NCBI GenBank assembly: GCA_024516035.1
Contig: CM044965.1
Location: 2,705,146 to 2,769,145, forward strand
From: Bactericera cockerelli
Taxonomy: Eukaryota; Arthropoda; Insecta; Hemiptera; Triozidae
Direction: 5' to 3'
Length of the DNA stretch: 64,000 nucleotides
A model generated the notes under the pieces. It ran no database searches. It was not told where the DNA came from and saw only the letters and a program-made list of their open reading frames with translations. Positions 3,154 to 52,100 of the stretch are shown in pieces. Numbering within the stretch: the stretch's first letter is position 1; each line of letters begins with the position of its first letter. The position numbers and the translations under genes are program-made.

Positions 3154-3852
3154 TTTTGATGAAAAAGGGCTCTATTTCAGGTGCCTTCCTGGTACTCTTC
3201 TATTTCTTTTTTATGAAAATAATCTCTCTCTCTTTCAGGTGCATTCCTGGTGCTCTACTATTTCTTTTTGATGAAAAAGTTCTCTCTCTTTCAGGTGCGT
3301 TCCTGGTGCCCCACTATTTCTTTTTGATGAAAATATTCTCTTTCTTTCAGGTGCTTTACTGGTGCCCTACTATTTCTTTTTGATGAAAATATTCTCTCTC
3401 TTTCAGGTGCAATCCTGGTGCCCTACTATTTCTTTTTGATGAAAATATTCTCTTTCTTTCAGGTGCTTTACTGGTGCCCTACTATTTCTTTTTGATGAAA
3501 ATATTCTCTCTCTTTCAGGTGCAATCCTGGTGCCCTACTATTTCTTTTTGATGAAAATATTCTCTTTCTTTCAGGTGCAATCCTGGTGCCCTACTATTTC
3601 TTTTTGATGAAAATATTCTCTCTCTTTCAGGTGCCTTCCTGGTGCCTACTATTTCTTTTTGGTGAATTATTCTCTCTCTTTCAGGTGCAATCCTGGTGCC
3701 CTATTATTTCTATTTGATAAAAATATTCTCTCTCTTTCAGGTGCGTTCCTGGTGCCCCACTACTTCTTTTTGATGAAAATATTCTCTCTCTTTCAGGTGC
3801 AATCCTGGTGCCCTACTATTTCTTTTTGATGAAAATATCCTCTCTCTTTCAG
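3154..3852 (+). repeat. Acceptor-derived minisatellite, SERT TM2 exon (13 copies counting the real one)
   Basis: Each unit is a pyrimidine tract, CTTTCAG, the first 18-20 exon bases (GTGCNNTCCTGGTGCCCTAC), then TTTCTTTTTGATGAAAATAT. The exon-like segments start at 3181, 3239, 3295, 3351, 3407, 3463, 3519, 3575, 3631, 3685, 3741, 3797 and 3853. The spacing is 56 bp, except 58 and 54 once each. The last copy is the true exon. Since 56 is not a multiple of 3, most decoys would shift the frame. Confidence 0.95.
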
Positions 3853-3987
3853 GTGCATTCCTGGTGCCCTACTGCATCATGCTGTTCGTGGGAGGCATAC
3901 CTCTGTTCTACATGGAACTTGCCCTGGGCCAGTTTCACCGAAAAGGGGCCATTACGTGTTGGGGTCGCATTGTGCCGCTTTTCAAAG
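3853..3987 (+). CDS. SERT: SERT exon, TM2 and first intracellular loop
   Basis: Starts with two bases that finish a Gly codon, then [20 protein letters not shown] and the SLC6 signature [17 protein letters not shown]. It ends with one base of the next Gly codon before GTAAAG. The acceptor is the last of thirteen nearly identical copies. Only this copy continues into the intact exon; the copies upstream diverge after the first 18-20 exon bases. Confidence 0.95.
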
Positions 3988-8169: not shown

Positions 8170-11100
8170 CTTTCCGCTTTATAAGAATCATATTTTCTTT
8201 TGTCTGCCCTTTAAATCCCGAAGAAGCGAAAAAGAAAAAGTTATCATACTTGTCTTAATCACTTTTTTCTCTTTTCCTGTCTGGCTACCATCGTTCACGA
8301 TGACGCCACCCTATGATGATGATGATATCATGATGGTTTACTTTTTAATTTTGTAATAATTCATTTTTTGAATGAACCATTTTCAAATGATTTATATAAA
8401 ATCAATTGAATAGTTGTCTAGAAGAACCACCTATGTGTTTTTTTTTTTTTTTTTCTTTTGTGTTTTTGTGTTTTTGGGCACTTTTCAATAGGGTACTTTT
8501 AGTAATACCATTAATGCAGCACCCAAATGTTTGGTCTTTCTTTCACATAGGTGGTTCTTCCATTTGGTTTACAAAAGAAACGTATGTTGTTAAACAATGT
8601 GCCAAGTAATTTACAGTTTATTCAGAAGGCAACTTTGAGTAGAAATCTTTGTGTTTCGAGTTCCTCATGTACGGTATCATACTCTCCAAGTTATTTTTCT
8701 TCTCCTTTTCTACAGACTATCTTCTCAATCTACGGACACCTTTTCTTCTTTTATTTACGTATTCCTGACCTTTATTACGCGCAAGTTGCAATTTTTTGTC
8801 AGTCCAATTATTCACATTAAGATCTTTCTTTTTTGCACTGTTCAAACACTCAATATCTTTACTTGAGAGACTCATCTTTGTAGGTCAGTAATCACACTTT
8901 TAATTTTAGAAATTTGTAATTTTAGAAACGTCAAATAAATCACGCGCAACTACCCTCTTATCCTATACTCGAATGTGGCGAGACTGATTTTAGTATTTTT
9001 AGTTCAACAAGTGCACATAGGTGGTTCTACATGATATTTTTTCTGCTCTGTTTTGACGACGACTTCTCTAGTGATTCAAGATTTACACATGGGTTCCATT
9101 TTTGAAATAAAAAAAAATCGAAATTTTCACATAGGTGGTTCTTCCAGACAACTATTCAATTATTGTTTGTGTTTATCACTTTCGTGATATCACAACTACT
9201 CAAACATGCTTTACTAAGAGCGGAATTAATAGACGTTTTTGTAATACCTCTGTGGCTCTAAGTCACGGATTGCGTACTGTGTAAGATAGGGAAAATTGAC
9301 ACTTACCAACGACCAACGACTTTTGTAATACCACTGTGGCGCTAAGTCACGGATTGCGTACTGTGTAAGACTGTAAGGGCGGAATTAATAGACGTTTTTG
9401 TAATACCTCTGTGGCGCTAAGTCACGGATTGCGTACTGTGTAAGATAGGGAAAACCGACACTTACCAACGACTTAAGTTATTGATGTTGTCTATTAATTC
9501 CGCCCTTAGAATGCGAAAACTGACGCTTAGCAATGACTTGTGATACAGAATTTGTCTATTAAATTCGCCCTTAATCCTGTTTTATTTTCGGCCCTTAATG
9601 TGACTTGGAGTTTCATATTTATACCTAATTTTGCCAGCTTCGATGGCTCGTTGAATGCATCGGCTCTCGTAGGATCATCGAACTTAAGCAACGTCCAGCG
9701 AGTTGAAGACATCGTGATGCTGGCATTCGGGCCCAAACCAGGCTGGGTGAGGTTATTTTGGGTAGCAGGCTTGTGAGTTTCATGCAATGGAGGGTACCGT
9801 CGTGATATGACCATGCAGTTGAAAGCGACGTTAAACTCAAAAAGATTATACCTAAATTTGCTTTGCTTTGCTAACACAGGCCATGGACAATGAAAGGCAT
9901 GTATTTCAGCGGTAGGAAATTTATTGTTCTAAGACCTTTGTGACTTTTTTGAGTAAGTTTCGTAGCTCGGTATTCCCTCTTTTTTCCTCATCTCTTTTTT
10001 TTCTTCTACTCTCTGATCTTTTATGATCAACGCTATTTTTCCATAAAACATAACAGAATAAATATGAATCCAGTATTCTGAGCTAATAATAATTCCATGT
10101 CCGTGAGATAGGCATAGCTACCTACTGGTATTTTTATCAATGTGATGAGATGATTAAAAATAAATAAAAATATATATATGTAGAACATTATTTTCATAAG
10201 TATTTACATTTTTTTGTAATCCGGGCGAAGTTAATGAAACGGGAATTCTTTGCCACTTGACTATCAAATCCAAATCAAATCCAATGATTTTATTATTAAT
10301 AATAATATTATACAACGCTTTATTAGGTATAAATGGACATTATGTACATAAAAATAATTTCAAATAATTTTTTTTATGTACATAATGTCCATTTCTTTTC
10401 GGGGGATAAGGAATGTCGTGTATAGTGTCACACCAGATTTTTTCATTAACCCTTGCATGCCCCGTGTGCAGGAATCGGGTATATTTTTTTTTTTCATTGA
10501 CCATTGCATGCCCCATGTGCAGGAATGGGGTATATTTTTTTCATTAACCCTTGCATGCCCCATGTGCAGGAATTGGGTATATTTTTTTTCATTAACCCTT
10601 GCATGCCCCGTGTGCTGGAATCGGGGGTATATTTTTCATTAACCCTTGCATGCCCCGTGTGCAGGAATCGGGTACGCGGTTGTGATCATCGCCTTCTACG
10701 TAGACTTCTACTACAACGTGATCATTGCGTGGGCTCTGCGCTTCTTTTTCGCCTCATTCACTGACCTCCTCCCCTGGACCACTTGCAACAACCCGTGGAA
10801 CACCAAGAACTGTCGATCCGTAAGTGGTTAATAACTTTAGCGTAACTTTTGTACGAGAAAATAAAATGATAACTGTTAGGTAAACTTATTTTTTTTTTTT
10901 TTACACTTTATTTTTTATACAATACAAACAACAATAAATTACTAACAAAGATAAAAAAAAAAAAAATTATCAATATTTACAAAATAAGATATAGAAAAAA
11001 TAAAATATTTAAAATTATATGTAAGTACAATGTATTGTAATCCGGGGCGAAGTTAATGCCTTAGGCATTCTCTGCCACTTACTTCGTTATTATTATTATT

Positions 11101-14100
11101 ATTTTACACTTTATCAAATAAGGACATATTCAATACAAACAGTTACTTACAAATTAATATACAATATAAGAAGAAGTAAAAACCCCCAAAAAATGGAGAA
11201 AAAATAAATAAATATCTACAAATATCTTAACTAAAGGGCGGGGTTATTGCTTTTGGCAATCTCTTCCACCCTTACTTATTATTCCAGGGACTTTTATTCC
11301 AGAAATAATAATAGTATCATCTTATTTATACTGCCCGATTAGGACTAATGATCTCATTATTTTAGCAGAGAGTTCAAGACACATTATTATGTGGTTGAAA
11401 TCCCAAATGGGAGGGTAACTTGTCACGTCCCGGCTTGAACCCGCGACCTTTGGATTACCAGTCAGCCGCCTTGACCACTGAGCTACCGGGCCAGAATGTG
11501 TAAATCACTTTCGTGATGTCACAACTACTCAAACTGCCTTTACTAGTCGTTCTGTGAACTGTAAACCTCACACAGATTCAACTATCGCATTATAAATGTT
11601 CAATCAAGCATGAATACATCGAGACTTTTCATTCAATAACCCACTCGATGGATTTTAATTAAAAAAATATCAAACGGCCCTTTTTTGGCCCTTTTTCGAT
11701 TTTTTTTTTAACCACAGAGCGGCCCCCTGAGCTTTCACGATCACAAAATTTCCCTACTCAACTTAAATATATTTTCTCAACGACTCTACAAAATTTCAAG
11801 AGCCTTGCTTGTTTCAATAGAAATAGAAGAATCGTTTTCAATTTTCACCAAAACGGCCCCCATTTGACCACTTCGGCCCAAAAAGTATAGGCAAAATTCT
11901 AGGATCTCAATGAACATGTATACTAAATTTCATCAATTTTGAAGAATCCAGTCGGGAGTTATCGCGGAACAGACAGACAGACAAACGAAAGCCAAATTGT
12001 CTAGTATGCAAGTCAAAACAGAACCCCATTTAGTGAGGTCGCTTCGCTCCCTCACTGTGTTCGGTTAACTAAATCTTTGCCTTTAGAGTAAAAACTGGCC
12101 ATTAGGGTAAAAACTGGCGATTAGATTAAAAACTGGCCATTAGAGTAAAAACTGGCCATTAGGGTAAAAACTGGCGATTAGATTAAAAACTGGCCATTAG
12201 AGTAAAAACTGGTCATTAGGGTAAAAACTGGCCATTAGGGTAAAAACTGGCCATTAGGGTAAAAACTGGCCATTAGAGTAAAAACTGGTCATTAGGGTAA
12301 AAAACTGGTCATTAGGGTAAAAACTGGCCATTAGAGTAAAAACTGGCCATTAGGGTAAAACCTTTCCCTCTTTCAGCTGGACCAAACCATCCTAAAGCTG
12401 AACAGCACAGTCGCCCCCTCCACCACTACCATGAGGCCCCTCTTCAACATCTCCTCCACTGGTAACCACTCTCTGGTCGCTGAACCCAAGGTTCCGGTGT
12501 TCGCATCCGCGGCTGGTGAATATTTCAGGTCAGTCAAGCTTTTTCTCCGCTCTTTCTTTCTTCAAAAGGCGCTATACTATAGGAAATAATCAAAGTTATC
12601 ATATTTGTGTTAATCACTTTCGTGATATCACAACTATCTACTCAAACTCGCTTTACTAAATCTACGCTGAAACCGGGACTTGAACCACCGACCTCCAGGT
12701 TACAAGTCCACCACCTTATCGAACAAGCTACTGAGGTTGGTGGAAATAATGAAAAAGAATGCCGTTGGCATTAGCACCGCCCTTGATCAAGTTTTGTTTT
12801 ATTAATGTCAATTTCTATGTATTTTTTTTATTTAAGAAGGTTCCATGTATTTAATTTTACAAATAAACATCTTCAACAAATAATGACGGTATACGTAAAC
12901 CCACCTTCAAAAGATAAAATTCTTGTGCTAAAGGTGGTAGTATACCTATATTCTATGTAAATAAAACTTGATCTAATATGTTTAATAATAAATAGTATTT
13001 AGGGAATTCCAGACATTACTGTCCTCTACCAGACCTTGTAGAATACAAAGGCCTTAGTGCAGAGTCAGACGTAATGGTCTCACAAATATTAATTGACCGA
13101 TTAAGCTTTTTTTGGTAAGTTTCTACTCGAGCGTTAAAATTTGAATTAGCTATTCATAGTTCAAACAATTTTAACTGGCCCTTTAATATTGGTCGGATCA
13201 ACATTAAAGTCAAAAATCAAAATTCAAACAGCTGATTCTATGTAGAATCTCATTTGAAGCAAAAAAAATTGTCTCGAATTAGTAATTTAAGATAAATGTG
13301 AAACACATGCTTTGTATAATAAACATTTGATTGATTGATTTTTAACATTTTAATCATTTTTTAATCAACCAATCAGAGAGCACTTCAATTTAAAACTCCA
13401 ATTACTCGATTAGCACTACACACTGAAATAATCAGTTCATTTCTCAATTAGGCTAAAAGGATCTCTAGTTAACACTCTGATTAGCCTTTGTCTTTTCACT
13501 ACCTCTAGAATCATAGATGTTCATCTCTTTATTTATTATATTTATATATATCTTTATTTGTATTATGATGTTACAATTTTCACCTCTTTATTTTCACAGC
13601 CGCTATATTCTCGAAATGCAGCACAGCACTGGACTACATGATCTAGGCTATATCAAGTGGGACATCGCCCTGTGTCTCCTGGCAGTCTACCTCATCTGCT
13701 ACTTCAGCATGTGGAAAGGCATATCTACTTCAGGAAAGGTAAGTTCTGCAACTTCAGATGGGACATAGCCCTGTGTCTACCTCATCTGTTACTTCAGCAT
13801 GTGGAAGGGCATATCTACTTCAGGAAAGGTAAGTTCTGAAACTTCAGATGGGATATAGCTCTGTGTCGACCTCATCTGTTACTTCAGCATGTGGAAAGGC
13901 ATATCTACTTCAGGAAAGGTAAGTTCCTGCTACTTCAGATGAGACATAGCCCTGTGTCTACTTCATCTGTTACTTCAGCATGTGGAAAGGCATATCTACT
14001 TCAGGAAAGGTAAGTTCCTGCTACTTCAGATGAGACATAGCCCTGTGTCTACTTCATCTGTTACTTCAGCATGTGGAAAGGCATATCTACTTCAGGAAAG

Positions 14101-17100
14101 GTAAGTTCTGCAACTTCAGATGGGATATCGCCCTGTGTCTACCTCATCTGTTACTTCAGCATGTGGAAAGGCATATCTACTTCAGGAAAGGTAAGTTCCT
14201 GCAACTTCAGATGGGACAGCGCCCTGTGTCTGCCTCATCTGTTACTTCAGCATGTGGAAAGGCATATCTACTTCAGGAAAGGTAAGTTCCTGCAACTTCA
14301 GATGGGACATCGCCCTGTGTCTGCCTCATCTGTTACTTCAGCATGTGGAAAGGCATATCTACTTCAGGAAAGGTAAGTTCTGCTACTTCAGATGGGACAT
14401 ATCCCTGTGTCTACCTCATCTGTTACTTCAGCATGTGGAAAGGCATATCTACTTCAGGAAAGGTAAGTTCCTGCAACTTCAGATGGGACATCGCCCTGTG
14501 TCTGCCTCATCTGTTACTTCAGCATGTGGAAAGGCATATCTACTTCAGGAAAGGTAAGTTCTGCTACTTCAGATGGGACATATCCCTGTGTCTACCTCAT
14601 CTGTTACTTCAGCATGTGGAAAGGCATATCTACTTCAGGAAAGGTAAGTTCCTGCTACTTCAGATGAGACATATCCCTGTGTCTACCTCATCTGTTACTT
14701 CAGCATGTGGAAAGGCATATCTACTTCAGGAAAGGTAAGTTGTGCAACTTCAGATGAGACATAGCCCTGTGTCTACCTCATCTGCTACTTCAGCATGTGG
14801 AAAGGCATATCTACTTCAGGAAAGGTAAGTTGTGCAACTTCAGATGAGACATAGCCCTGTGTCTACCTCATCTGTTACTTCAGCATGTGGAAAGGCATAT
14901 CTACTTCAGGAAAGGTAAGTTCATGCTACTTCAGACAGATGGGACATAGCCCTGTGTCTACCTCATCTGTTACTTCAGCATGTGGAAAGGCATATCTACT
15001 TCAGGAAAGGTAAGTTCTGCAACTTCAGATGGGACATAGTCCTGTGTCTACCTCATCTGTTACTTCAGCATGTGGAAAGGCATATCTACTTCAGGAAAGG
15101 TAAGTTCTGCAACTTCAGATGGGACATAGTCCTGTGTCTACCTCATCTGTTACTTCAGCATGTGGAAAGGCATATCTACTTCAGGAAAGGTAAGTTCTGC
15201 AACTTCAGATGGGACATAGTCCTGTGTCTACCTCATCTGTTACTTCAGCATGTGGAAAGGCATATCTACTTCAGGAAAGGTAAGTTCCTGCAACTTCAGA
15301 TGAGACATCGCCCTGTGTCTCCTAGCTATCTACCTTATCTGTTACTTCAGCATGTGGAAAGGCATATTTACTTCAGGAAAGGTAAGTTCAGGAAAGGTGG
15401 TCATATCTGGTAAAACCAGGTCGTCTGGTAAAACTCACAAACCAAGTACTGAAATTAACCTCACCCAGCCTGAGTGGGGTCGAGAATAGTACGAGTGTTT
15501 AAATTTGAATGGTCATTGACAAAATATGTGAGTTCATATTTTATTAAATGTTCATAAATTTGGGGTTACGTAACAAAGAATGCCTAAGGCATAAATTTCG
15601 CCCCGGATTACAAGACAATTGTAAATATAAATTTTATTAATGTTGTTCTATTTACTTCTGATAAATGTCTAATATTGTTCTATATATTAAACAATACTTG
15701 AGTTAATGGTAGTTTATGTAAATTTACAGATAGAACATGGAAGTCAATTTTTCCGATGGTAATGCTCCCAATACCTTTCTGGATTGTTATGCTTATTTTT
15801 TATATTGTTGATTGTTTTTTATATAAAAAATAAATAAACAAATAACTATTATCTCCGTCCATTCCTCAGGTCGTCTGGTTCACAGCTCTGTTCCCCTATG
15901 TGGTGCTGCTGATTCTGCTGATCCGAGGAATTACTCTGCCTGGATCAGCAGAAGGCATCAAGTACTATCTCAAACCCAACTTCGACGCCATCACCAAATC
16001 TGAGGTAAGTAACACCCCCCACCCCGCCAGCCTTCGTGGCGTACCGGTTTTGACTCCTCCCGTTGGTCCAGAGATCCCGAGTTCGACTCCCGGTTGGGGC
16101 AGACTTTTCGAACAGAAAATTCATCTCCAACCACGTGAGTCGAGCATTTCAAAGCTTCTAGTGTGGAGAGGAAGCATTTTTCGGATTTTCGTCTCACAAT
16201 AGACAAAAAATACATGGTAAATATCTGTTTACCATGTATTTTTTGTCGATGGACTTATGCTGCACACTGTTTAATAAATTATAATTATTATTATTATATT
16301 ATTAGGGTCATAATGTTATTACAATTATCACAATATTAATAATATTATGATTGTTATGTACGCATACACAAAAACACATACTTTTCACTCGGTCGCATAT
16401 TTTCTATTGTTTAGACTTCAGAGTATCACACGACAAGCCATCAAGCGTGAGTTGATAAATAATGTGTAATAGACTCGAAGGTGATTGGGGGATGGTAGGA
16501 CGACGAAATGGGGAAGAGAAAGGGAAAAATCACTTGATATAAAAAAGAGGCAAACAAAATCACGAAGGATAAAAAGAGAGAGAGAGGAATAAAAAGAGAA
16601 AGGGAAAATTCACTTGGGATAAAAAAAAATAAGGGAAATCACGGCGGATAAAAAGAGAGAGAAGATTAGAAAGGGAAATATCACTTGGAATATAAAAACA
16701 GAGGGAAATCACGAATGAAAAAGAGAGGGAAAATGTCATGGGATATAAATGATAGGGAGAGAGATAAATGACAAGAGCGCACGAATAGCTCAGTGGTTAA
16801 GCACTAGCTTGCCATGTGGAAGGTCCCGGTTTCGAACACCCGCGGCGACAAAAATTTGTATTCAAAATTAGGTTACAGTTGTTTCTAAGGGATACCTTCC
16901 GGTGCGCTCGTGTTGACCCAGCACCTAAATGGGGAGTATTGTGTCACTTTTCGCCCATCAGAGGGGAGGCATACTACGGGATGGACAGGCTACAAAACAA
17001 ACCACAAACGTAGCTCCTGTTTCATGGCTACGAAATAAAAATGGCTGTGAAACACTCATCTTAAAATAAAAAAAAATGGCAAGTGGGAGAAAATCTCGAT

Positions 17101-20100
17101 AATAAAAAAAAGAAAAAGGAAAAATCACCTAGGTTAAATTAGAGGGAGAGAGAGGGAAATCACGAGAGATAAAAAAGAGGGAGAGGGAAAAGATAGAGAA
17201 AGGGATAAATTACAAGGGATTTAAAATTAATGACGAGAGGGAGGAAATCACGAGAATAAAGAAAAGAGAACGGGAAAAATCATGATACTTGGAGACAGAC
17301 GGATAGTGGGATAAATCACGAGGATTAAAAGAGAGAGAGAAAGAGAGAGGTAAAGGTATAAATTACAAGTGATTTAAAATGGCTAGGGGAGGAAATCACG
17401 AGAGTAAGAAAAAAAGGAAAAATCACTTGGGTTGAGAAAAGAGGGAGAGGGAAAAGATGGATAAAGGGATAAATTACAAGGGATTTAAAATGGCGAGAGG
17501 GAGGAAATCACGAGAGTAAAGAAAAGAGGAAGGGAAAAATCACGAGAGATAAAAAAGAGAGGGAGGGAAAAAAACATATGAAAAAAAAGGAGGGAGAGGA
17601 AAAAGATAGATAAAGGGATAAATTACAAGGGATTTAAAATGACGAGAGGGAAGAAATCACGAGAATAAAGAAAAGAGAACGGGAAAAATCACGAGACATA
17701 AGAGACAGACGGATAGTGGGAGTGGGATAAATCACAAGGAATAAAAGAAAGAGAGAGAGAGAAGTAGAGGGATAAATTACAAGGAATAAAAGAAAGAGAG
17801 AGAGAGAGCGAAGTAGAGGGATAAATTACAAGGGATTTAAAAAAGAGGAAGGAGAAACGTGTGAAGTACACAAGTTCCCCTTGAATAACTTGAACATCAT
17901 AATTCCATTTCATAACCTATTTTTTTCCAAGCTTCTAGTTTTTGACACGTTCTTTTTTTTTCTGACACCATGTCCGTCAAGAGAATAATAATAATGATTT
18001 TAAAATTACTACGGGGTCCACTCACACCTCATGAGGAAAAATGAGTGGCTACTTTAATCTGAGCACCGACCAGTGGCGGAAATATGGGCAGATTAGATAT
18101 TAAGATATTCAATGAGGAAAAAAGAGCACTGGTAGTGGTTAACGCGCTAGTCTGATAATCCAGGTAGCGTAGGGATCCGTTGGTTCGAATCCCACCCAGG
18201 GCATGAATTTTTCCTCATTAATTTGAGTTGGTGATCACATAATAATAAGACTCTACGGGTTAGGTGGTAGAAAATGATTTGAACAACCTCGCCTTGTGCT
18301 GGGGTTACCTTAAACTAAAAAGTGTTGTTGATATTATTATTATTATCACAATCCTACGCTACCCACTTAAATTGTGATATAATACCACCATGAAAATCAT
18401 TTAATTTTAACACTGAGCCGTTAAGAGCATTGTTTGCTAACTCGGAGGTTGCGGGTTCGAATCCTGGCCGGAACAGAAAATTCTGACCAAGTTTTTCGTT
18501 TCCGGAATGGCATGGATGTAAAGGTAAAGTGTCCTGAAGTCATGAGAAAGCGGTTCCGAGGCACACATAACTTAAAATATTAAATTAATTAACCCTTTGA
18601 GTGCCCTGAAGTAATGAGAAAGCGATTCCGGGGCATAAATAACTTAAAATATTAAATTAATTAACCTTTTGATTCCAGGTGTGGGTGGATGCGGCCACTC
18701 AGGTCTTCTTCTCTCTGGGTCCTGGGTTTGGTGTTCTCCTGGCCTACGCCTCGTACAACAAATATCACAACAATGTCTACCAGTAAGTTCCGTGTCGGTA
18801 GCTCTGTGGTCAAGACGTCGGGGTCTGGTAATCCAGATGCCGTGGGTTCGAAACCTAGTCGGGAAAAATTAAACGCGCCATCGACGGTGGTTTTAGGATG
18901 GAAAAAAATCTTCTTTTAAGGACATTCTCCAACAAAATTTTAAATAAGTTATTATTCTTCTTGTTGTAGTCAGCTTGTCTACAGCTGGGGGAGTGATGGT
19001 CCTTATCCAATTTTTTTTTTTTTTAATTTAATATCTCTTTCAACTGGTCAGAATCACGACGGGAGGTTTACCCTTCATTCGCTGAAAAAACACAAACCAG
19101 CTACTCAAATTAAGCTCACCCAGCCTGAGTGGGGCCCGGAATAGCCAGCATCACAAGGGTTCGAATTCGAATGGTCACCCATTCAAATCCTAGCCTCGTT
19201 GGACGTTGTATAACTTCAGTGACTGAATAAGAACTAGTGTATTCACTGTGCCATCGAGTCCGCACTATGGCACTGTGCCACTGTGCCATATCCAGAGAAA
19301 AACAATTTTATACAATAACAAACAAAAACAACTACCAGCCTTTAACTACTTGCTTGACACACAGATTGCTGATCAAAAGAACTGGTCTTCATTTTTTTCA
19401 TTAGTTTGAATTAAAAAAAAAAAATATTATTTATTTTTGTTTTCTTTATTTCTTTATTTTTTTTCTTAACCATGTAGTAATTTGAAAAGTAAGCTCGTTC
19501 TGAAGTACATATTTCTATGTGCGATCAACCATCATAAGTTTCATCTTAACATTTCAGAGACGCAATCCTGACCAGTTTAATCAACTCGTGCACCAGTTTC
19601 ATAGCAGGCTTTGTCATCTTCTCAGTTCTGGGCTACATGGCGCACATATCTGGTGTGCCCATCAACGAGGTAGCGGTGGAAGGTAATCATAAATTGTTCT
19701 TTAATTTGTAATAATTTAAAATTTTATAGTAGCCAGGGGGGTGCACCCCCTCCCCCCCCCTAGAAAATTCCAGGTAGTATGCAACACTAGGTATTATTGA
19801 TTGTTCACTAGGTATTATCCTCATTAGCTGCCCCCCCCCCCCCCCCCTAGCCAAAATCCTGGCTACGCCCATGATAATATATGTAATCTATCTACATCAA
19901 TTGGTACAGTATTAAATTATCGTAAAATGTATCAATTAGAAAGAAGAAAAAAATGAAGTTACATTATTATTACATACAAAACCTGACAAAAATACTTGTT
20001 ATTTATTGTATACTAAAGTTTAGGGCTTGTCTGGAGCCACCCATTTGTGTCGCTTAAATCTTAAAAAAAAAAAGATGAGTGTTTCACAGCCATTTTTATT

Positions 20101-36976: not shown

Positions 36977-37173
36977 CTAGAAGATGAAGGGCAGCTTGTG
37001 TCGCGGGGTGTGGGGGGTCAGCGTGGCCTGGGTTCGACTCCGGGTGAGGGTGGCATTGCCCCCGCGGGGGGTGAGACAGGCCTGGGAGCGGGAGCGGGTG
37101 AGGTGGGGGGCGGGGCTGGGGGGTGGGGGAGCTTGCGGGCGGAGGAGGGCGCGGTGGGGGGCTTGGTGCGAAT
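36977..37173 (-). CDS. PRC1: PRC1 candidate last exon with stop
   Basis: GC-rich island after CTCCCACCAG. Entering in phase it reads IRTKPPTAPSSARKLPHPP and reaches TGA at 37018. A shift of one base within the C runs reaches the more natural end LTRSRTQATLTPHTPRHKLP-FIF with TAG at 36979-36977. The theme K-x-R-x-P/S continues exon 10. Which end is real is not decidable from the sequence. Confidence 0.6.
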
Positions 37174-40100
37174 CTGGTGGGAGAGACAGAAAATTAAAGT
37201 GGCATTTTTTTATACTCTTTTTAGTTATTAAACATTACAACTTCAAGAGATTGTCAATATTTATTTTATTTATTTATTTACACTTTATTTTTTTACAAAA
37301 CAATCATCAACAACAAAAAAATAACAATAGATTAAAAAAAAAACTTAGAAGTATGTACAAAAAGAAATAAAAATCAATATTTATTAATTTTTATTACAAT
37401 TGTTTTGTAATCCGGGGCGAAGTTAATGCCTTAGGCATTCTCTGCCACTTGACCCATTATAAAAGAGACATTCAAATATTTCGAGAACTACTGACGATAG
37501 AAAAAATCTGTCAAAGGATCATTCTCATAGCTCTAACGGGGACACTTAATGGTGACCTTGAAAAGTTTCTTAGATGACTCCTTCAAGGTTATTCAAGGTC
37601 AACTTTAAAAGCCAGCGTCGATGGCATGTTGAATACACCGGTTCCCTTCAGAACACCGAAGTTAAGCGACATCCAGCGAGGTTAAGACTTGGATGGGTGA
37701 CCATTCAAGTTCTAATTCTCGTGACGCTGGCTTTTCCCGGCCCCACTCAGGCTGGGTGAGGTCAATGTGAGTAGCAGGTTTGTGAGTTTCCTGCGAATGG
37801 AGGGTAAAACCCCCGTCGTGATATGACCATGGCAGTTGAAAGCGACGTTAAACCCCACAAAAAAAAAGGTCAACTTTGGATTTTAAATGGAATTTTTTTT
37901 TTTTAATTCTTAAAAAAAATTTGAGTTCAAAAAAATTCCTTCTTTTAATTTTAATCACAGCCTCACACACTTTAGGAAATGTGATATTTTTTTTATATCT
38001 TAGACTATGAGTGCGTCATATCAAATCAGTCTAATTTTAGTTGCTGTACGTGATAGTAATATTAGTTTTTAATTTTACTTGGTTTTTTTTGTATCATATG
38101 AGTAAAGTGAAAAAAAACAAAAGTTGTAGTAACCATGCTTAGAGCACTCAGCAGCCGGGCAATTCATGCAGAAAGATTCTATATTTTTTTTGTATTTATC
38201 TTTTAGCAAATAAAATTCACGAACAAATAGTGAGGGTATACCCACCTTTAAAAGATAAAATCTTGTGCTGAAGATGGGGAGTTCAAAATAATAATTTGTA
38301 TATAAAAAAAAATTCAATTAATTTTGCGGGGTTGTACGGAATTGATTTTTTTTTTTTTTTTTCTTGTTGGGAATTAATTCATTGTTTGAACCGTGCATAT
38401 TGACAAACTAATGCTTTTACAAAAACTATCACACAATAACAAAACAAAACCTCTATTAACAATTTTATTATTATTATCTGATCTGGTAGCAGGGTTTTCA
38501 GTGAAACCCTAACAATTAACACTGCGACCTAATTAGATCTATTGTGACCAGTTGATTCTATTTAGTTTTAACGTCCAGCTACCCACATTAACCTCACCCA
38601 GCCTGGGTCGGGTCAGAAATGCTAGCCTCACGTGTTCGGAGGGAACAGAATTTTGTTCGAAAAGTCTGCTCCAACCGGGGATCGAACTCGGGATCTCTGG
38701 ACTACGGGCAGTAGTCACTACCATTACGCCAAGGAGGCTGGCTCTATAAACAAATACTTTTACAAAAACTATCACACGATAACAAAACAAAACAAGAGGA
38801 AACAAATGCTTTTACAAAAACTCTCACGAAAAACAAAACAAAACCTCTATGGACTAAGAAATGAAAAATTACCACGTGAGTTTGGAAGATAATGCAGATG
38901 TAAAATTACACAGCCCTTCGTCTGCCCTTTATCTAGAACATAGAAATCATTGAAAAAATAGTTTTATTTAAATTGCTTTTTTTTTCAATCCACACGGAGA
39001 ACCTAGAGCCCGCAGTTTCCTCATGCAGAAGATCAGCATAGATATAGAGAGAGGAAATTCGAGGTGTCCAACTTTATTATTATTATTATTAAACAGATTT
39101 AATCAAGTTTTATTTACAAAATAAAGTATATACAATTTACAAGAAAAAAAGTTGATATTATTAAAACAAAACTTGATCAAGGGCAGTGCTAAATGCCTAC
39201 GGCAACTTTGGTGGGACACCCTGTATAATTAATTAATTATTTATTCATAAAAATAAATTTTGAATGATAGTTAAAAATACCATTGATTTCAAAAATGTAA
39301 TTGCCATTTAGGATGAGAATCTTTCAGACTTATAAACTGTGCAGCCATTCGGGTGACTTTTTTAATTAAATGTGGAAAAAGCAACTACTAACTATGTGGG
39401 AATTATCCAAACTCCCCGTCTTCTTTTTTTGTAAATAGGTTTTGCTGTACCGTAAAATAAACAATACCTAACGATACTATTTTTATTTTATTAAAAAAAA
39501 AATGTAATCATTATTTGTACTGCACATATGTCTATTATCTCATAAAGATTTCAATAATAAAACCTTGGGAGACAGCAGTTTGCTGCGAGCGGGTAGTTTG
39601 GTTTTTAATTTAAATTTTTTTTTAAATTTAATTAAAAAAAACCATTTTCAATTTTTTCAAAAAATTGTAATCATTATTTGTACCTACTGCACATCTGTCT
39701 ATTATCTAATAAAGATTTCAATAATATTACCTTGGGAGACAGCAGTTTACTGCGGGCGGGTAGTTTGGTTTTTAATTTTAATAAAAAAACTATTTTTAAT
39801 TTTAAAATAAACCATTTTTAATTTTAAAAAAATATTTTTTTTTTAATGTATCTGTACTGCACATATTTCGTTATTTCTACTGCACATATGTCTATTATCT
39901 ACTAAAGATTTCAATAATAATACCTTGGGAGACAGCAGTTTGCTGCGGGCGGGTAGTTTGGTCTTAGCGGCGGGCACGGGGGTACTCCTCACGGTGCTAG
40001 TCTTCTCCTTGGTGCTCCCTGCCTTGGATCTGTAGGTGGAGTTCAGACCCTCGTCCACGTCCAGTTGGTTCTGAAACACGAGAGTTAATAATAATAATAA

Positions 40101-43100
40101 TATCGCCTTATTTATATTGCCCGATTAAGACTATTGAAGTCCCATTATTCCAGCAGTAAGCCCAAGACATATATTATTATATGGTAAAAATCCCAAATGG
40201 GAGGATAACTTGTCATGTCCCGGCTGGGTTTCGAACTCGCGACCTCTGGAATCTTAGTGCCGCTTTTACCACTGAGCTACCGGGACAGACTAATAAACTG
40301 GTGTGAACATCGCACGACTTTCTATTACCTAAACTAGGTTAGGATTTTATTTTTTGAAATTTCTGAATATAAATCAGACTGTAAAAAAAATGTAACTAAA
40401 AGAAGAAACAAAATATTTAGAAGAAACAAAAATATTACAAAAATAAACTCGCTTTACTAATTCTACAGTATCTATACTGACACCGAGACTTGAACCACCG
40501 ATTAAGCTAATGATGTCGGTTTCAAGAGTTAGACACTCGCTTGTCATGCGGAAGGTCCCGGGTTCGATCCTCGGAGCCGACAAAAAAATTGTATTCTAAA
40601 TTTGGTTACAGTTGTTGCAAGGGTTACCTTCAGGTGCGCTCGTGTTGATATACCATCTAAATGGCAAGTAGTATGCCACTTGTGGCTCCTGTTTCATGGC
40701 TAAGAAATAAAAAAGGCTCTGAAACACTCTTCTCTGAATAAAAAAAAAACGTTACGGTGACCTGAGTTGGATGTTGCGGTGTTTACTCATACCTCGTGAG
40801 GAAAAATAAGTAGTATATCCCGGTAGCTCAGTGTGGTCAAGGCGACAGTCTGGTAATCCAGAGGTCGCTGGTTCGAAACCATGCTGGGACATGACAAGTT
40901 ATCCTCCCATTTGGGATTTTGACCACATAATAAATAATACGTCTTAGCCTTACTGCTGGAATAATGGGACTTTTCAGTCCTAATCGGGGAGTACAATTAT
41001 TATAATAATATTAGTAACGGAATCATGGGCAAAAATAAGATATTGGGGTGTTCAACAAAAACCACATGGAGAACCCACAGAAATCCAAAAGAGAAAATTT
41101 GCAATAAAAAAAACACTCAGACAGTCCAAAACCAAACCCACAGAAAATCAGAAAACAAACTACCACAGAAAATCACGAACAAACTACCACAGAAAATCAC
41201 GAACCAACTACCACAGAAAATCACGAACCAACTACCACAGAAAATCACGAACCAATTACCACAGAAAATCACGAACTAAGTACCACAGAAAATCACGAAC
41301 AAACTACCACAGAAAATCACGAACCAATTACCACAGAAAATCACGAACCTATTACCACAGAAAATCACGAACCAACTACCACAGAAAATCACGAACCAAC
41401 TACCACAGAAAATCACGAACCAACTACCACAGAAAATCACGAAAAAACTACCACAGAAAATCACGAAAAAACTACCACAGAAAATCACGAACGAAAACTT
41501 ATAGAAAATGTAGCTGCAGGGCGCTAAAAGAACGAACCAGGAACAATTTCATGAAAATACGCCATTTTCTTTTTTGGTCATATCTCGAGAGAAAAAAACC
41601 TCGTAAACCATCAAAAAATAACAGAATAAAATCGTCTTAATGGTGATCTTAAACACATATTTTGAATGTCAATGTCTGACATTTTCTCCATTAGCCCGTG
41701 GTGGGTTAAATTTTTTTACAGTAATGAGATATGTGCAAATATCTCGTAAAAGATAAGAGATATTGAATTTTTTTTACATGATAATATCGATTTCAATGGT
41801 AATTTTGCACACATTTTCAATCTTCTTCTTCTTTTACTCTGTCTTATCCCGCTCAAGCAGGGTCGACGTTGTTCAACCTCATGGTTGAGGTTGATTGGTT
41901 TTGGCACATTTTTTTTTTACGGCTGGATGCCCTTCCTAACGCCAACGATTCTATTTGATTTAACGTCCTGGATTAGGACGGGGGTTTTACCCTCCATTCG
42001 CTGGGAATCGTACCAGCTACCCACATTAACCTCACCCAGCCTGGGTAGGGCCGGAAATGGCAGCCTCACGTGTTTGGATGGAACAGAATTTTCATTTCTA
42101 CTTCTAATATACATTTTCGACATACTCGTATATGAAAATTTAACCTGAAACTTGATATCAAGTATAAACGTGTTGTATATATAAACTTACTCAATGATGA
42201 TGATGATGAATAATTGAAACACCTCAAATCTAAACCCACACCAAAACCCTTCTTCCAACACACACAACTTACCCCTCTCGGGGGGGGGGGGGGGGGGGGG
42301 GGAAGCGTCGACAACACCAAAACCCTTCTTCCAACACACACAACTTACCCCTCTCGGAGGGGGGAACGTGAGGGGAGCGTCGACAATCGGCTCACCAAAG
42401 TATAAGCGGTCCAAATATTCGTCCCCGCCCGGTGGTCAAGTCCCGGGGAGGAAGGGTGCCGTTTTGGGACCCCACGAGTACCGAGTTGACAGGAAGGGTG
42501 CCGTTTTGGGACCCCACCAGCACCGAGTTGACCATGAGAAGGGGCGGGGTGTCTTGGAGGACTCGTTTGTCTGGGGTGTCTTGGACTCGTTTGTCCGGGG
42601 TGTCTTGGAGGAGATTGTTGGGCAGAGACTCGTGAGAGAGAGAAGATCTCAGCACGGAGGAGATTGACAAGGAGGAAGAGTCCGTGTGAGAGATTTTGGA
42701 GAGCGAGGAGCTTCGTTTGAATTTCCTCTGAGTGATGTTACGCTAGTGACACACGACCGAAAATATTTTTGAAATTTTTCAAAAAAAAAAATTTTTGGGG
42801 GTCTTTCTTTTTTCTGTTTTTTTTTATTATTATTATTTACACTTTTTTATACAAAACAATCAACAATAAATTATTAACAGAGATAAAAAAAATTAACAAT
42901 ATTTACAAAATAAAATAGAAAAAAATATTTAAATTTAAAGGTACAGTTGTCTTGTAATCCGGGGCGAAGTTAATGCCTTAGGCATTCTCTGCCACTTAAC
43001 CCCGACTGTTCTCTGTGGCAAGAATGGATGGCCGACCTCTGTGCCTCAGTGGTTAAGAGTTACTGTAAAGACAGTTGTAGACATTGGTTACTGTAAAGAC

Positions 43101-46100
43101 ATTGGTTACTGTAAAGACAGTTGTAGAAATGCTGAGTCATTCCTCCACTGTCTGGCTACCATCGTTCACGATGACGCCACCCTATGATGATGATGATCTT
43201 TGTTCAATCTTTTTATTTTTTCTTTATTATTTCATTGTACTTTACTGTATATATTTTACTTTGTCTTACCTAATAAAGCATAATATAATAGCCTTATTAT
43301 CTTTTTTGTTCTTCTTTCTTTGTTCAACCTATGTATATATTTTTTCTTTATAATCTCACAAGCGGGCTGTCGCCCGCTTTGCGGGCCGAGGCATGGCCGT
43401 GAAAGCAAAAAATCCTTTTTCGCCAATTGCAGGTGTTGTAGTGGGAGTTTCGAAAAATCCCGTCTTATTGCACATCTAGACTATAAGACAAAGCTACCTA
43501 CCAAATTTCAGCTTCCTAGGACTTACGGTTTGGGCTGTAGAGCGATGATCAGTCAGTGGTCAGTGGTCAGTGAGTGTCTTTGACATTTATATATTAAGAT
43601 TGTATTTTACTGTATATATTTTACTGTATATATTTTACTTTGGCTTACTTAAGAAAGCATACTATAATAATAATAATGGGTTACCTGGAACAGTGAATAT
43701 GAGAGAACGGAAGAGGCAGGGCTCGAACCCACAACCTGGGGCTTCCTGGCTGCAGACCCGATGATGCGACTCTGAGCATTCTGGAACAGAGGTGAGGAAA
43801 CATTAATAATACTAATTATAACAACCTACTTGTGTAGGTCATATGATGTCAAAATTAACGAATAGGACTGAATTGTCCCTTCTAATGTGTCAAATGTAAA
43901 AACAAAAATAAATTTTCATAATAACACTCTTTGGTGGAAGGTAACCACCAGGCGAGGAAACATTAATAATAATAATTATAACACATAATTCATATGACCT
44001 ACTTGTGTAGGTCATATGATGTCAAAATTAACGAATAGGACTGAATTGTCCCTTCTAATGTGTCAAATTAATGTAAAAACAAAAATAAATATTCATAATA
44101 ACACTCTTTAGTGGAAGGCAACCACCAGGCGAGGAAACATTAATAATACTAATTATAATAATAATAAAACTCTTTAGTGGAAGACAACCATCAGGCGAGG
44201 ATAATAATATTAATAATAATAACACTCTTTAGTGGAAGGTAACCACAAGGTTTGATAATGCTTAAAGCATTGTCTACCACCTAAAAAAAAATCTACCATT
44301 TTCTACCACCATTCTCAGAGTCTTATTATTATGTGGTCACTAACTCAAATTAGTGAAGAAAAAATCATGCACTGGGTGGGATTCGAACCCACAGATCTTT
44401 TACTACCTAAACTAACACACCAGAGCCTTAAACAAACATCTTTTTAAAAAATCATGCATTGGCTGGGATTGGAACCCACGGATCCCTCACTACCTGGATT
44501 ACCAGACCAGCGCCTAAACCACTTGACTATCAGTGCACATTTTTTTTTTTTATGAAAAAAAAAAATGCATTGGCTGGGATTCGAACCCACGAATCTTTTG
44601 CTACCTAAACTAACAGACCTTAAACAAATATCTTTTAAAACAAATATCTTTTAAAAAAACCTGCATTGGCAGGGATTCGAACCCACGGATCCCTCACTAC
44701 CTGGATTACCAGACTAGCGCGTTCACCACTTGACTATCTCAGTGCACATTTTTTTTTTTCTGGATCGCTACCTGGATCACCAGAGCAGCGCCCCAACCAC
44801 TTGACTATCAGTGCACATTTTTTTTTTAATGAAAAAAAAATAATAATAATGCATTGGCTGGGATTCGAACCCACAGATCCCTCGCATCCTGGATCACCAG
44901 ACCAGCGCCCTAACCACTTCGACCTTTCTTTCGACCAGACCTAACTTTCCTACCTAATTTCTTCTTCTCCTCCTCTTTCTTCTCCTCCTCCTTCTTTTTC
45001 TCCTTCTTCTTCTTCTACTCTTTCTTCTCCTTCTTCTTCTTTTTCTTCTTCTTCTCCTCTATTTTCTATACTTTTCATTGTACCTTCAAATTTTTCTTTT
45101 CTCTTTTTTTTTTGTCAACTTTTGTTTCCTTCTACTTTTTTACAAGTATTTATTATTATACAATATACATATATTTTTTTCATTATTTTTTATATCCTAT
45201 GGGGTTCGGTGGAAGAGAAAGCGACAGACTTTCTTTAACCTCGCCCCTTGGTTCACTACATATTCTATTTTTTTTATATATATATATTTTTTTTTTTTTT
45301 AAAGCATGTCCTATTTTGTTGAATGTATGTAGTTGACCAATAAAAAGTTAAATAATAATAATAATGACCACACTCACGGGCGTCCTGGTTGCAGACTCGA
45401 GCAGGCGGCCCCTCTTCACTTCCAGGGCGGGCGTGGCGTCCCCCTTCCTCTTCAGGGTGCCGTTCCTCCCGGGGGTGTTGTGCCGGGTGGCGGTCTGGTT
45501 GGGACCCAACAGTTTAGACTTCTGGGCGGCGGCTGCTTGAGATGATGAACTGGCGACGTTTTTTCTGGGGGAAAGGGAGCAAGATAAAAATAGTTTTGTT
45601 TAATAATTTCAAGTTTTGATCAAGTTTTGTTTAATAATTTCAACTTTGTTTCTTGTAAATTGTATAAACTATATTTTGTAAATAACCGACCTCAGTAGCT
45701 TGATCGATAAGGCGGCGGACTTGTAACCTGGAGGTCGGTGGTTCAAGTCCCGGATTCAGCGTAGTTTTTAGTATAGAGCGAGTTTGAGTAGTTGTGATAT
45801 CACGTAAGTGATTAATACAAATATGATAACTTTAGTTTAGTATTGAGCTGTTATACACAAGTGGATCAACGGTGATACTCAAGGCTTGGATAGAGCATAC
45901 ACTGTTAATTGGCAGAGAATGTTTCAGGCATTGACTACGCCATGGATCACAAAACAATGGTAAATAAAAATTAAAAATGTTCTATTTTTTTAGTTTTTTT
46001 TTTTAATTTATTGTTATTGATATACTGTTCATTTTTTTATCATCATCATAGGGTGGCGTCATCGTGAACGATGGTAGCCAGACAGTGGAGGAATGACTCA

Positions 46101-49100
46101 GCACTTCTACTACTGTCTTTACAAGGAGGCTAATAATTGACAAGGGCCCCCAGAACCAAGACAATACTGGTCTACTCCCTGTTTTTAGTCTTCCAGCCAG
46201 ACTGCTGGTCTACTCTTTGTTTATAGTCTCCAACCAGACAAAGATACAAGAACAAAAAAGAGAGTAAAGCTAATGTCCTACTTAAAGGGCGGGGTTATTG
46301 CCTGTGGCAATCTCTTCCACCCAACCCATCGTTTCTCTTTATGTTATGTTTTGGAGTTCAACCGTCAACGTCCCTTTTAAGTGCTAAGGCCAGGTAAAGC
46401 GGGGATTTCGTCCTCCATTCACTGGAAACTCACAAACCAGCTACTCAAAATTAACCTCACCCAGCCTGGGTTGCGCCGGGAATAGCCAGCATCACGAGTG
46501 TTCAAAACATAATTTGGTCAGTCATCCAAGTCCCTGTTTATAGTCCCCCAACCAGACTGCTGGTCTACTCCCTGTTCATAGCCCCCAGCCAGACTTTTTT
46601 TTTAAATACACATAATATATAAACAAGACGATCTAATTCTCAATAGATATATTCTCAAATAAATCCGATCTGAGGCCAAACAATCACCGTGTAAATGCAG
46701 CACGAATTGGTCCTAACTACTTTGCAATCTCAATGTTTAATAAAATCCCACTTCATATCAGAGACATACCGTGTGAGACTTTTAAAACCATAATTTCCTG
46801 TTTTCTAAAGAAAAAAGCATTCTATTTCATTCAGGACTTCTTGTCCTGCGATTAAGATGAAATCTAGTATGATCTTATTTAATTTTTTTTTATTTTTTTT
46901 CTATGTAATAATGTATTTATTGTAAAATTCAACTATGGAATTTTTGGCTCAATGGTAAACATGTGGTACCATTGATCCATGGGTCTCAGGTTCAAACCAT
47001 GGGCTCGGCAAGAAATTAATAATCAGCTATGCCTAACTGATGAGTTCAAATAAGAACGAAACGATCGTCTTAGGCTGCTTGGGGGTTGAATATCACATAT
47101 ATAAAATTGTAGTGATGAAAATTGAGCTAAATGTAATAAAAATATATAAATTTGATTTGTATTTATTGTATTTATTAACTCCCTTGTACAGTGTTAACAA
47201 TTTATTAATTGATGCACATTAAATAAAATTAAAAAAAAAATAATAATAATAAATTACCCTGGCGTTCTTCAGATTCTCCTTGGCGCAGGATCTCTCCTCC
47301 CACTGCGCAGCTATGTATGCGCGTGCATCCTGTCCATCATACAGGAACACGTGACCTGTCCGCGCCTGGAACTTGTCCAGCAGTTTCTCCAGGCGCTTCT
47401 CCAGCTTGGGCAGCTCCTTCTGGAGAAACTTGCGTTGCTTCTCTTCCAGCAGCAGTTGGCCACCGCGGTTTTTGAATAGTCTATAAAAAAAATCATCATA
47501 TGATAGGGTGGTGTTGTTGTTGTAGCCAGTTTGGCTACAGCTGGAGGGGTGAGTGATGGTCTCCAGCCAACTTTATTTCAAAGTTGACTCTTCCTGAACC
47601 ACATATTTCTATGTGCGATTAACCATCATGAGAACTTGGACTTTTCTTTTTAAGCCACTAGCGGGCTGTCGCCCGCTTTGCGGACCGAGGCATGGCCGTG
47701 AAAGCAAAAAGTCCTTTTTCGCCCATGGCAGGTGTTGTAGTAGGAATTTCGAAAAATTCCGTCTTATTGCACATCTAGACTATAAGACAAAGCTACCTAC
47801 CAAATTTCAGCTTCCTAGGACTTACCAGTTCGGAGAAACAGTGATGATCAGTCAGTCAGTGACTTTGACATTTATATATTAAGATTAAACCCTTAGGAAA
47901 TTGCAAGCTAGCCTGGCTTGTAAGGGTTGGCTAGTCTGTTCTCTGTTTATAGTCCTCTAGCGGGACACTGGTCTTCTCCCTGTTTAACACTTAGACGACC
48001 GGCATGGTTTTTAGTGAATTCTCCCGTGGGACCGGCGATGTTTAGACGTAGTGCATTTGTGTACCACCGGTGGTACACCCGGTCCATTCCGCACAGACAC
48101 GCGTGTACCACCGGTGGTACACGCGGTCGTCTAAGTGTTAACGTCCCCCAGCCACACTACCACAATAATTGTGATTAACTAAAATAGTAAACCTAATAAT
48201 AGTAGTTAGTTATCATATTTGTGTAAATCACACTCGTGATATCACAACTACTCAAACATCGCTTTACAAAATCTACACTGAAACCGGGACTTGAACCGCC
48301 GACCTCCAGGTTACAAGTCCGCCGCCTTATCGATCAAGCTACTGAGATCGGTTAAACTAATAAAATACAGCCAATAAAATTATGCACACAATACTTCCTC
48401 GTGATTGTTTCACATTGTACACACGTGGCAATTTTGAGATTTTATCCTAATCACCTGTATCTCCAAAATCGCTTAACCGATTTTCTTCAAATTTGATTTA
48501 TATGGTAGAATACTATTTTTCCTACATTCTAGATTCTACAAAAAAAAATCTGTATCGGCAAGTCGTTGACCTTATTTTTTGACTTTTTTGTCCAAAATTT
48601 CGGATTTTCTTAAATATCAGAGTTATATACCTGTCTTTATCATTGGCCTTGTCCTCTAGTTCCACCATCTCCCGCCAGAGTTCAAACCTCTTGCCAAGCA
48701 GATCCAGGATGTCCCTGTTTTCTTCATAGTACTGTTTCACATTCTCCACCTCTCTCTCATGTGCCTCTAGCACCTGGGGGAATTAATAACACAAGTTAAG
48801 CTACACCCAGCATGGATAGGATTTGTTTTCTTCATAGTACTGCTTCACATTCTCCACCTCTCTCTCATGTGCCTCTAGCACCTGGGGGAATTAATAACAC
48901 AAGTTAAGCTACACCCAGCATGGAGAGGATTTGTTTTCTTCATAGTACTGCTTCACATTCTCCACCTCTCTCTCATGCGCCTCTAGCACCTAGGGGAATT
49001 AATAACACAAGTTAAGCTACGCCCAGCATGGAGAAGATCTGATTTGTTCATAGTACTGCTTCACATTCTCCACCTCTCTCTCATGCGCCTCTAGCACCTG

Positions 49101-52100
49101 GGGGAATTAATAACACAAGTTAAGCTACGCCCAGCAGGGAGAGGATTTGGTTTGTTCATAGTACTGTTTCACATTCTCCACCTTTCTCTCATTCGCCTCT
49201 AGAACTTGGGGGAATTAATAACACAAGTTAAGCTACGCCCAGCATGGAGAAGATTTGGTTCCACCTCTCTCTCATGCGCCTCTAGCACCTGGGGGAATTA
49301 ATAACACGAGTTAAGCTACGCCCAGTATGGAGAGAATTTGGTTCCACTTCTCTCATGCGCCTCTAGCACCTGGGGGAATTAATAACACAAGTTAAGCTAC
49401 GCCCAGCATGGAGAGGATTTGGTTCCACCTCTCTCTCATGCGCCTCTAGCACCTGGGGGAATTAATAACACGAGTTAAGCTACGCTCAGCATGGAGAAGA
49501 TTTGGTTCCACCTCTCTCTCTCATGCGCCTCTAGAACCTGGGGGAATTAATAACACGAGTTAAGCTACGCTCAGCATGGAGAAGATTTGGTTCCACCTCT
49601 CTCTCTCATGCGCCTCTAGCACCTGGGGGAATTAATAACACAAGTTAAGCTACGCCCAGCATGGAGAAGATTTGGTTCCACCTCTCTCTCTCATGCGCCT
49701 CTAGAACCTGGGGGAATTAATAACACAAGTTAAGCTACGCCCAGCATGGAGAAGATTTGGTTCCACCTCTCTCTCATGCGCCCTAGCACCTGGGGGAATT
49801 AATAACACAAGTTAAGCTACGCCTAGTAAGGAGAGGATTTGGTTCCACTTCTCTCTCATGCGCCTCTAGAACCTGGGGGAATTAATAACACGAGTTAAGC
49901 TACGCCTAGTAAGGAGAGGATTTGGTTCCACTTCTCTCTCATGCGCCTCTAGAACCTGGGGGAATTAATAACACGAGTTAAGCTACGCCCAGTATGGAGA
50001 GAATTTGGTTCCACTTCTCTCATGCGCCTCTAGAACCTGGGGGAATTAATAACACGAGTTAAGCTACGCCCGGCATGGAGAGGATTTGGTTTCTTCATAG
50101 TACTGTTTCACATTCTCCACCTCTCTCTCATGCGCCTCTAGCACCTGGGGGAATTAATAACACAAGTTAAGCTACGCCCAGCATGGAGAAGATTTGGTTC
50201 CACCTCTCTCTCATGCGCCTCTAGCACCTGGGGGAATTAATAACACGAGTTAAGCTACGCCCCGTATGGAGAGAATTTGGTTCCACTTCTCTCATGCGCC
50301 TCTAGCACCTGGGGGAATTAATAACACAAGTTAAGCTACGCCCAGCATGGAGAGGATTTGGTTCCACCTCTCTCTCATGCGCCTCTAGCACCTGGGGGAA
50401 TTAATAACACGAGTTAAGCTACGCTCAGCATGGAGAAGATTTGGTTCCACCTCTCTCTCTCATGCGCCTCTAGAACCTGGGGGAATTAATAACACGAGTT
50501 AAGCTACGCTCAGCATGGAGAAGATTTGGTTCCACCTCTCTCTCTCATGCGCCTCTAGCACCTGGGGGAATTAATAACACAAGTTAAGCTACGCCCAGCA
50601 TGGAGAAGATTTGGTTCCACCTCTCTCTCTCATGCGCCTCTAGAACCTGGGGGAATTAATAACACAAGTTAAGCTACGCCCAGCATGGAGAAGATTTGGT
50701 TCCACCTCTCTCTCATGCGCCTCTAGCACCTGGGGGAATTAATAACACAAGTTAAGCTACGCCTAGTAAGGAGAGGATTTGGTTCCACTTCTCTCTCATG
50801 CGCCTCTAGAACCTGGGGGAATTAATAACACGAGTTAAGCTACGCCTAGTAAGGAGAGGATTTGGTTCCACTTCTCTCTCATGCGCCTCTAGAACCTGGG
50901 GGAATTAATAACACGAGTTAAGCTACGCCCAGTATGGAGAGAATTTGGTTCCACTTCTCTCATGCGCCTCTAGAACCTGGGGGAATTAATAACACGAGTT
51001 AAGCTACGCCCGGCATGGAGAGGATTTGGTTTCTTCATAGTACTGTTTCACATTCTCCACCTCTCTCTCATGCGCCTCTAGCACCTGGGGGAATTAATAA
51101 CACGAGTTAAGCTACGCTCAGCATGGAGAAGATTTGGTTCCACCTCTCTCTCATGCGCCTCTAGCACCTGGGGGAATTAATAACACGAGTTAAGCTACGC
51201 TCAGCATGGAGAAGATTTGGTTCCACCTCTCTCTCATGCGCCTCTAGCACCTGGGGGAATTAATAACACGAGTTAAGCTACGCTCAGCATGGAGAAGATT
51301 TGGTTCCACCTCTCTCTCTCATGCGCCTCTAGCACCTGGGGGAATTAATAACACGAGTTAAGCTACGCTCAGCATGGAGAAGATTTGGTTCCACCTCTCT
51401 CTCTCATGCGCCTCTAGAACCTGGGGGAATTAATAACACAAGTTAAGCTACGCCCAGCATGGAGAGGATTTGGTTCCACCTCTCTCTAATGCGCCTCTAG
51501 CACCTGGGGGAATTAATAACACAAGTTAAGCTACGCCCAGCATGGAGAGGATTTGGTTCCACCTCTCTCTCTCATGCGCCTCTAGAACCTGGGGGAATTA
51601 ATAACACAAGTTAAGCTACGCCCGGCATGGAGAAGATTTGGATACTTCATAGTACTGTTTCACATTCTCCACCTCTCTCTCTTGCGCCTCTAGAACTCGA
51701 AGGAAGTATTTATCTATTTAAAAAAAAATTATGTACAAAACAATCTACAAGAAATGAATACCACGAAAAATACATAACAAAATTAATGACAGACGAATAA
51801 CAGCTTATCTCTAGTGCCTGACTAGGACACTCAAGTCCAATTATTCTAGAACCGAGCCCAAGATGTATTATCTTGGGGTCAAAATCTCAAATGGGAGAAT
51901 AACTTGTCAAAGTCCTACTGGGGGTTACAAACCGGAGATCTCTGAATTACCGAACCGACGCGACGCCTTGGCCACCAGGATCGATTTTTTATTTTTTTTT
52001 ATTTACACTTTATTTATTTTTACAAAACAATCATCAACAAAGAATTAATAACAATAATTTTAAAAAAACTTAGAAGTATGTACAAAAAATAAAATAATAA

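Follow-up and report, generated by a model that had tools for sequence, protein, structure and literature searches.

Tandem arrays spanning splice junctions in the dopamine transporter and PRC1 genes of Bactericera cockerelli

The DNA analysed here, a stretch of 64,000 nucleotides from Bactericera cockerelli (hereafter the window), raises the question of why tandem arrays in two neighbouring genes repeatedly contain a splice junction, and of whether such arrays call for a mutational process that is itself linked to junctions. Three genes lie partly within the window, namely one for a monoamine transporter (+ strand), PRC1 (- strand) and an M1 aminopeptidase gene of which the start is present, recognised by a match to the Peptidase_M1_N domain. 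Twelve exons of the transporter gene were found between 3853 and 26163, and after splicing these form one unbroken frame that runs via the array-bearing junctions. An earlier note on this DNA had named the gene SERT. It is a dopamine transporter (DAT) instead, the query scoring 848 bits against Drosophila DAT versus 563 bits against human SERT. Among the 120 best of 4923 protein matches, most are insect DAT by name, one is a noradrenaline transporter and the remainder are unspecified, the top match being from Diaphorina citri (85% across the full query). An open reading frame for a reverse transcriptase (5828-7210, +; RVT_1, E 1e-34) lies in the intron separating the first two DAT exons found. 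PRC1, which runs from about 55.6 to 37.0 kb on the - strand, matches PDB entry 4l3i (E 1e-50) and has its best protein matches in D. citri and Cyamophila willieti (Psylloidea); its last exon was recognised by comparing open reading frames of the window with D. citri proteins.

Arrays were found by TRF, by repeat search and by reading, and all copy counts given below include the true splice site. Six arrays span a junction, four of them in DAT (+ strand) and two in PRC1 (- strand). Array A (3153..3873) consists of 13 copies of a 56-bp unit made of the intron end and 21 exon nt, the last copy being the true acceptor of DAT exon 3853-3987. Array B (10438..10674), at the acceptor of DAT exon 10665-10819, has 5 copies of a 47-51-bp unit comprising the intron end and 10 exon nt; one of its decoys, i.e. 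of the copies other than the true site, has lost the AG. Array C (13658..15389) repeats the donor of DAT exon 13600-13738 in 19 copies of a 90-bp unit, of which the first and last are full-length (about 101 bp, 81 exon nt) while the inner ones hold 70 exon nt. Array F (20665..20967), at the donor of DAT exon 20612-20724, has 4 copies of a 77-bp unit with 60 exon nt. In PRC1, array E (48716..51697, -) repeats the acceptor of exon 48773-48631 in 34 copies, with long units of 108 bp and short ones of about 84 bp whose exon part is 58 or 29 nt, and array P (39518..39962, -) repeats the donor of exon 10 (40070-39924) in 3 copies spaced 167 and 193 bp apart, each with about 39 exon nt. Array P was missed by TRF.

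When each of 48 junctions was checked for a nearby copy of the 40-mer centred on it (same strand, at least 30 of 40 positions identical, no more than 3 kb away), exactly these six had one, and at the same six the repeat unit combines sequence from both sides, exon and intron, of a single true junction. The arrays have the head-to-tail copies, the units of about 10-100 bp or somewhat more and the variants among copies that characterise minisatellites, array P, at 3 copies of around 180 bp, being a borderline case. The junctions at 3853, 10665, 13739, 20725 and 48773 that the earlier note had singled out prove exact to the base, and the four in DAT are used in the continuous 12-exon frame. Its picture of two neighbouring genes with several junction-spanning arrays that do not resemble one another is likewise borne out, as unit length and sequence differ from array to array. 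Two of its statements need trimming. Firstly, of the seven junctions that it listed, six are copied in tandem (3 to 34 copies), while at the PRC1 exon 9 donor we find only a donor-like repeat of two copies. Secondly, each unit was said to contain the splice site plus 10-60 exon bases: the exon part ranges from 10 to 81 nt, and AG or GT is kept by 69 of the 72 decoys. Many other columns of the units are equally conserved, and hence the retention of decoy splice sites says nothing about selection.

Three more repeats come close to an acceptor and leave the junction out: a 19-bp x 14.8 array (12079..12360, +) that stops 16 nt short of the acceptor of DAT exon 12377-12528, a 72-bp x 2 duplication (18528..18672, +) that stops 6 nt short of that of DAT exon 18679-18782, and a repeat with 160-177-bp spacing (43790..44165, -) that stops about 10 nt short of that of PRC1 exon 43780-43685. 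Thus, repeats extend right up to the minimal splice signals. In the junction-spanning arrays, the true site always lies on the exon side, as had been claimed. This position is a geometric necessity: in a series of n x [exon end + intron start] only the first copy joins the exon, which forces the true donor to the exon side, and in acceptor arrays only the last copy does, with the same consequence for the true acceptor. It is therefore no evidence of directional growth. The further idea that the arrays grow only into introns, owing to selection against growth into exons, falls away, since geometry suffices and leaves no directional growth in need of explanation.

What does call for explanation is how splicing escapes ruin, for the decoys closely resemble the true sites, and when decoys were translated, 12 of 12 (F02 and F03 included) ran into a stop or a frameshift. 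The proteins of related genes are continuous across the same places. A D. citri DAT protein has no insertion at any of the four array-bearing DAT junctions, the acceptor of PRC1 exon 48773 is crossed by four PRC1-like proteins, and the exon 10 donor by three of those four. The introns flanking the arrays measure at least 0.9 kb wherever both intron ends fall within the window. According to extracts of PMC9225289, splicing favours the site that lies nearest across the exon where introns are long, and the opposite holds where they are short, and the intron lengths beside our arrays fall in the range that those extracts assign to exon definition. Decoys are probably tolerated, then, because long flanking introns favour the pairing of splice sites across the exon. 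Judging from the integrity of the genes and from published splicing rules, the exon-side site would be the one used in Bactericera cockerelli.

The copies themselves carry traces of how the arrays arose. An 11-bp segment present in the exon copy and in the outermost copy of array C is missing from the inner ones; since this deletion is confined to inner copies, growth was internal. The joint of the array C unit contains 13 nt identical to part of its own exon, a match equalled by 1 of 20000 shuffled fillers. Template-switching repair or replication, followed by internal amplification, is expected to leave marks of this kind. The short units of array E derive from the 108-bp unit through a deletion in its exon part, and then spread; a block of 11 copies, about 940 bp long, was itself duplicated (E08-E18 and E19-E29), and the outermost copy is without its intron part, which was either lost or never present. 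That outermost copy, at 51697 (-), starts at the exon boundary and is preceded by another acceptor-like sequence (CTTCCTTCGAG), as though an older acceptor had once stood there. Neighbouring copies have an identity of 0.962 in array C, 0.919 in array E and 0.875 in array A, versus mean pairwise identities of 0.943, 0.894 and 0.870, respectively. Along arrays A, C and E, likeness to the exon copy shows no significant gradient (Spearman P 0.69, 0.43 and 0.20, respectively), so that steady conversion from the exon is unsupported, even though copy E33 shares 98.7% identity with the exon copy. Array F is very young, with 99% matches among its copies. Such near-identity is also what one might see if misassembly had created or lengthened the arrays; we consider an artefact of this sort very unlikely, given the private variants, derived deletions and nested block duplication among the copies of A, C and E and their mean pairwise identities of 0.87, 0.94 and 0.89.

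Together, these observations lead us to a reading that we hold to be probable: the arrays are ordinary minisatellites that arose from tandem duplications spanning splice junctions and were tolerated through exon definition. In a first step, of which array C alone bears direct signs, an error of break repair or replication would duplicate a segment of about 50-190 bp, consisting of intron end plus exon start at acceptors or of exon end plus intron start at donors, with a templated filler in one case. The unit is then amplified, a step that can be read from the copies, in which deletion derivatives have spread (C and E) and a block has been duplicated (E). Finally, the spliceosome would pair the nearest sites across the exon, that is, it would take the exon-side copy and leave the mRNA unchanged, as gene integrity and published splicing rules suggest. 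Duplicates would thereby be near-neutral and free to accumulate. For no single array is a junction-directed mutation process necessary; the number of arrays is a separate matter, which one window cannot settle.

Could mobile elements inserted at exon edges have carried or provoked the duplications? The intron parts of arrays A, B, C, F and E have no match longer than 14 nt elsewhere in the 64-kb window, which leaves the retroposon insertion at exon edges proposed by the earlier note unsupported for these five. Array P is different in that its intron part, starting 1 nt into the intron behind the PRC1 exon 10 donor, is 81% identical over 59 nt to 28357-28415. An element at the edge of PRC1 exon 10 is thus possible, and a start beside a dispersed repeat counts against the view of array P as an ordinary minisatellite. 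A dispersed repeat also lies no more than 33 nt away on the intron side at 17 of the 48 junctions; dispersed repeats make up 29% of non-exonic DNA, so this figure is not clearly high. As a general explanation, mobile elements seem to us highly improbable. Among the dispersed repeats, four at 16005-16100, 18783-18870, 25029-25120 and 25565-25660 have a tRNA-like box of the GGTTCGAA type, their likeness to tRNA having been judged by eye; they begin 0 to 21 nt past four DAT donors.

We therefore return to the ordinary-minisatellite reading and to the number of arrays, which bears on its main competitor, a putative process linked to junctions (R-loops, polymerase pausing or exon-edge breaks) that would seed or amplify repeats and produce a true excess of arrays there. 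For the main count we took 17 arrays (at least 2.5 copies, unit of at least 15 bp), two of which (E and P) were added manually, and 53 junctions, namely the 48 above and five more (PRC1 exon 8b, exon 9 and last exon) used only in the array nulls. Six of the 17 arrays span a junction. When seeds of unit length were placed at random, 0.58 were expected (P 5e-6), and when whole arrays were placed with no more than one unit of exon overlap, 0.63 were expected (P 1e-5); plain neutrality predicts no such roughly tenfold excess, and these two nulls accordingly count against the ordinary-minisatellite reading. A GC-matched null applied to a separate, hand-made list of 20 arrays gave 0.77 expected (P 2e-5). 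Free shuffling of whole arrays gave a different answer, with 3.54 expected and P 0.09. The earlier claim that junctions are too small a target to be hit so often therefore stands under random seeding and fails under position shuffling, which is the comparison that the earlier note had proposed, run here within the window. Over five sets of cut-offs, P ranged from 7e-7 to 1e-3 for seeds and from 0.006 to 0.30 for freely shuffled arrays. TRF loci alone, from which E was lost in row merging, give 4 of 16 spanning a junction (seed P 5e-4, shuffle P 0.41), and TRF loci plus P, still without E, give 5 of 17.

Whether junctions exceed chance thus depends on the null chosen, and the three nulls disagree. 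We regard random seeding and limited exon overlap as nearer to biology than free shuffling. The test was post hoc, with nulls picked after seeing the data and a single window selected for this very feature; two of the six arrays had been added manually, array P was found by inspecting a junction, and non-junction arrays missed by TRF were sought equally only in 37000-48700, so that the counts lean toward an excess. Counted per site, junctions are duplicated no more than other non-exonic DNA: a local copy exists for 6 of 48 junctions (12.5%) and for 1500 of 13218 non-exonic 40-mers outside the six arrays (11.3%). In our judgement the excess of arrays at junctions is suggestive but unproven, and a junction-linked process behind it is unlikely. 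One further observation, which also counts against the ordinary-minisatellite reading, speaks for such a process: among arrays with units of at least 40 bp, a junction is spanned by 6 of the 8 that reach 2.5 copies and by 0 of the 8 that do not (Fisher P 0.007, post hoc), i.e. the association is confined to arrays of higher copy number. Preferential expansion of junction-containing units is a lead, not a result. Its bolder form, a conjecture that we rate as rather improbable, would be that junction duplications are preferentially amplified and not merely born, that exon-intron boundaries drive copy number, and that decoy arrays fill the introns of many genes, neutral by virtue of exon definition.

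The elementary event, a duplication across a splice junction, is already known, as extracts of PMC4974935 and PMC2812944 indicate. In the former, a tandem duplication across an intron-exon boundary gave potato RdRp a new intron; what was duplicated ran from the 3' end of an intron into the 5' end of the following exon, a composition shared by arrays A, B and E. Potato RdRp, as described there, gained one extra copy, with both exon pieces taking part in a new intron, whereas here there are up to 34 copies and, judging from the protein, no new exon. The extracts of PMC2812944 concern human segmental duplications with internal tandem repeats at exon-intron boundaries, where, as here, minisatellite expansion overlaps the boundary. 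Those repeats have a mean unit of 30 bp and 4 copies and often change the transcript, whereas ours have units of 48-180 bp and up to 34 copies with the true site on the exon side. Near-identical sites competing within each transcript also recall the duplicated splice-site constructs of Reed and Maniatis 1986, as described in the extracts of PMC9225289, and those made in PMC9225289 itself. Unlike these constructs, the present arrays are natural, have many more copies, lie in long-intron insect genes and are known from sequence. The present arrays stand out by their size (up to 34 copies) and by recurring six times within 64 kb, in two genes. A partial search of the literature found single junction duplications and boundary repeats, and no comparably large arrays recurring at splice junctions.

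The arrays amount to a natural duplicated-splice-site experiment, in which 5-34 acceptors or 3-19 donors compete and the correct site is known from the protein, so that splice-site choice by position can be measured while sequence stays nearly constant. In donor arrays, the true site is favoured both under "first made, first used" and under exon definition, so that the two cannot be told apart; in acceptor arrays they can, as the true acceptor is the last to be transcribed. If an excess at junctions held true genome-wide, such arrays would be one way in which introns grow and new splice variants arise.

The seventh junction of the earlier note, the PRC1 exon 9 donor, lies in a region with repeats of its own. 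After exon 9, a 62-nt repeat (42238..42375, -) occurs in two copies 76 bp apart and carries GAGAGGG|GTAAGT; the frame that resembles exon 9 of D. citri PRC1 meets a stop about 45 nt ahead of this donor-like GTAAGT site. Within the exon 9 region, two repeats lie at 42449-42612 (-), one with a 24-bp and one with a 42-bp unit, both multiples of three, which read in frame as QDTPDKRV and VNSVLVGSQNGTLP; the TRF consensus of the 24-bp repeat is 27 bp. Cyamophila willieti PRC1 has an unrelated 35-residue repeat, present three times, in the part that matches the exon 9 region.
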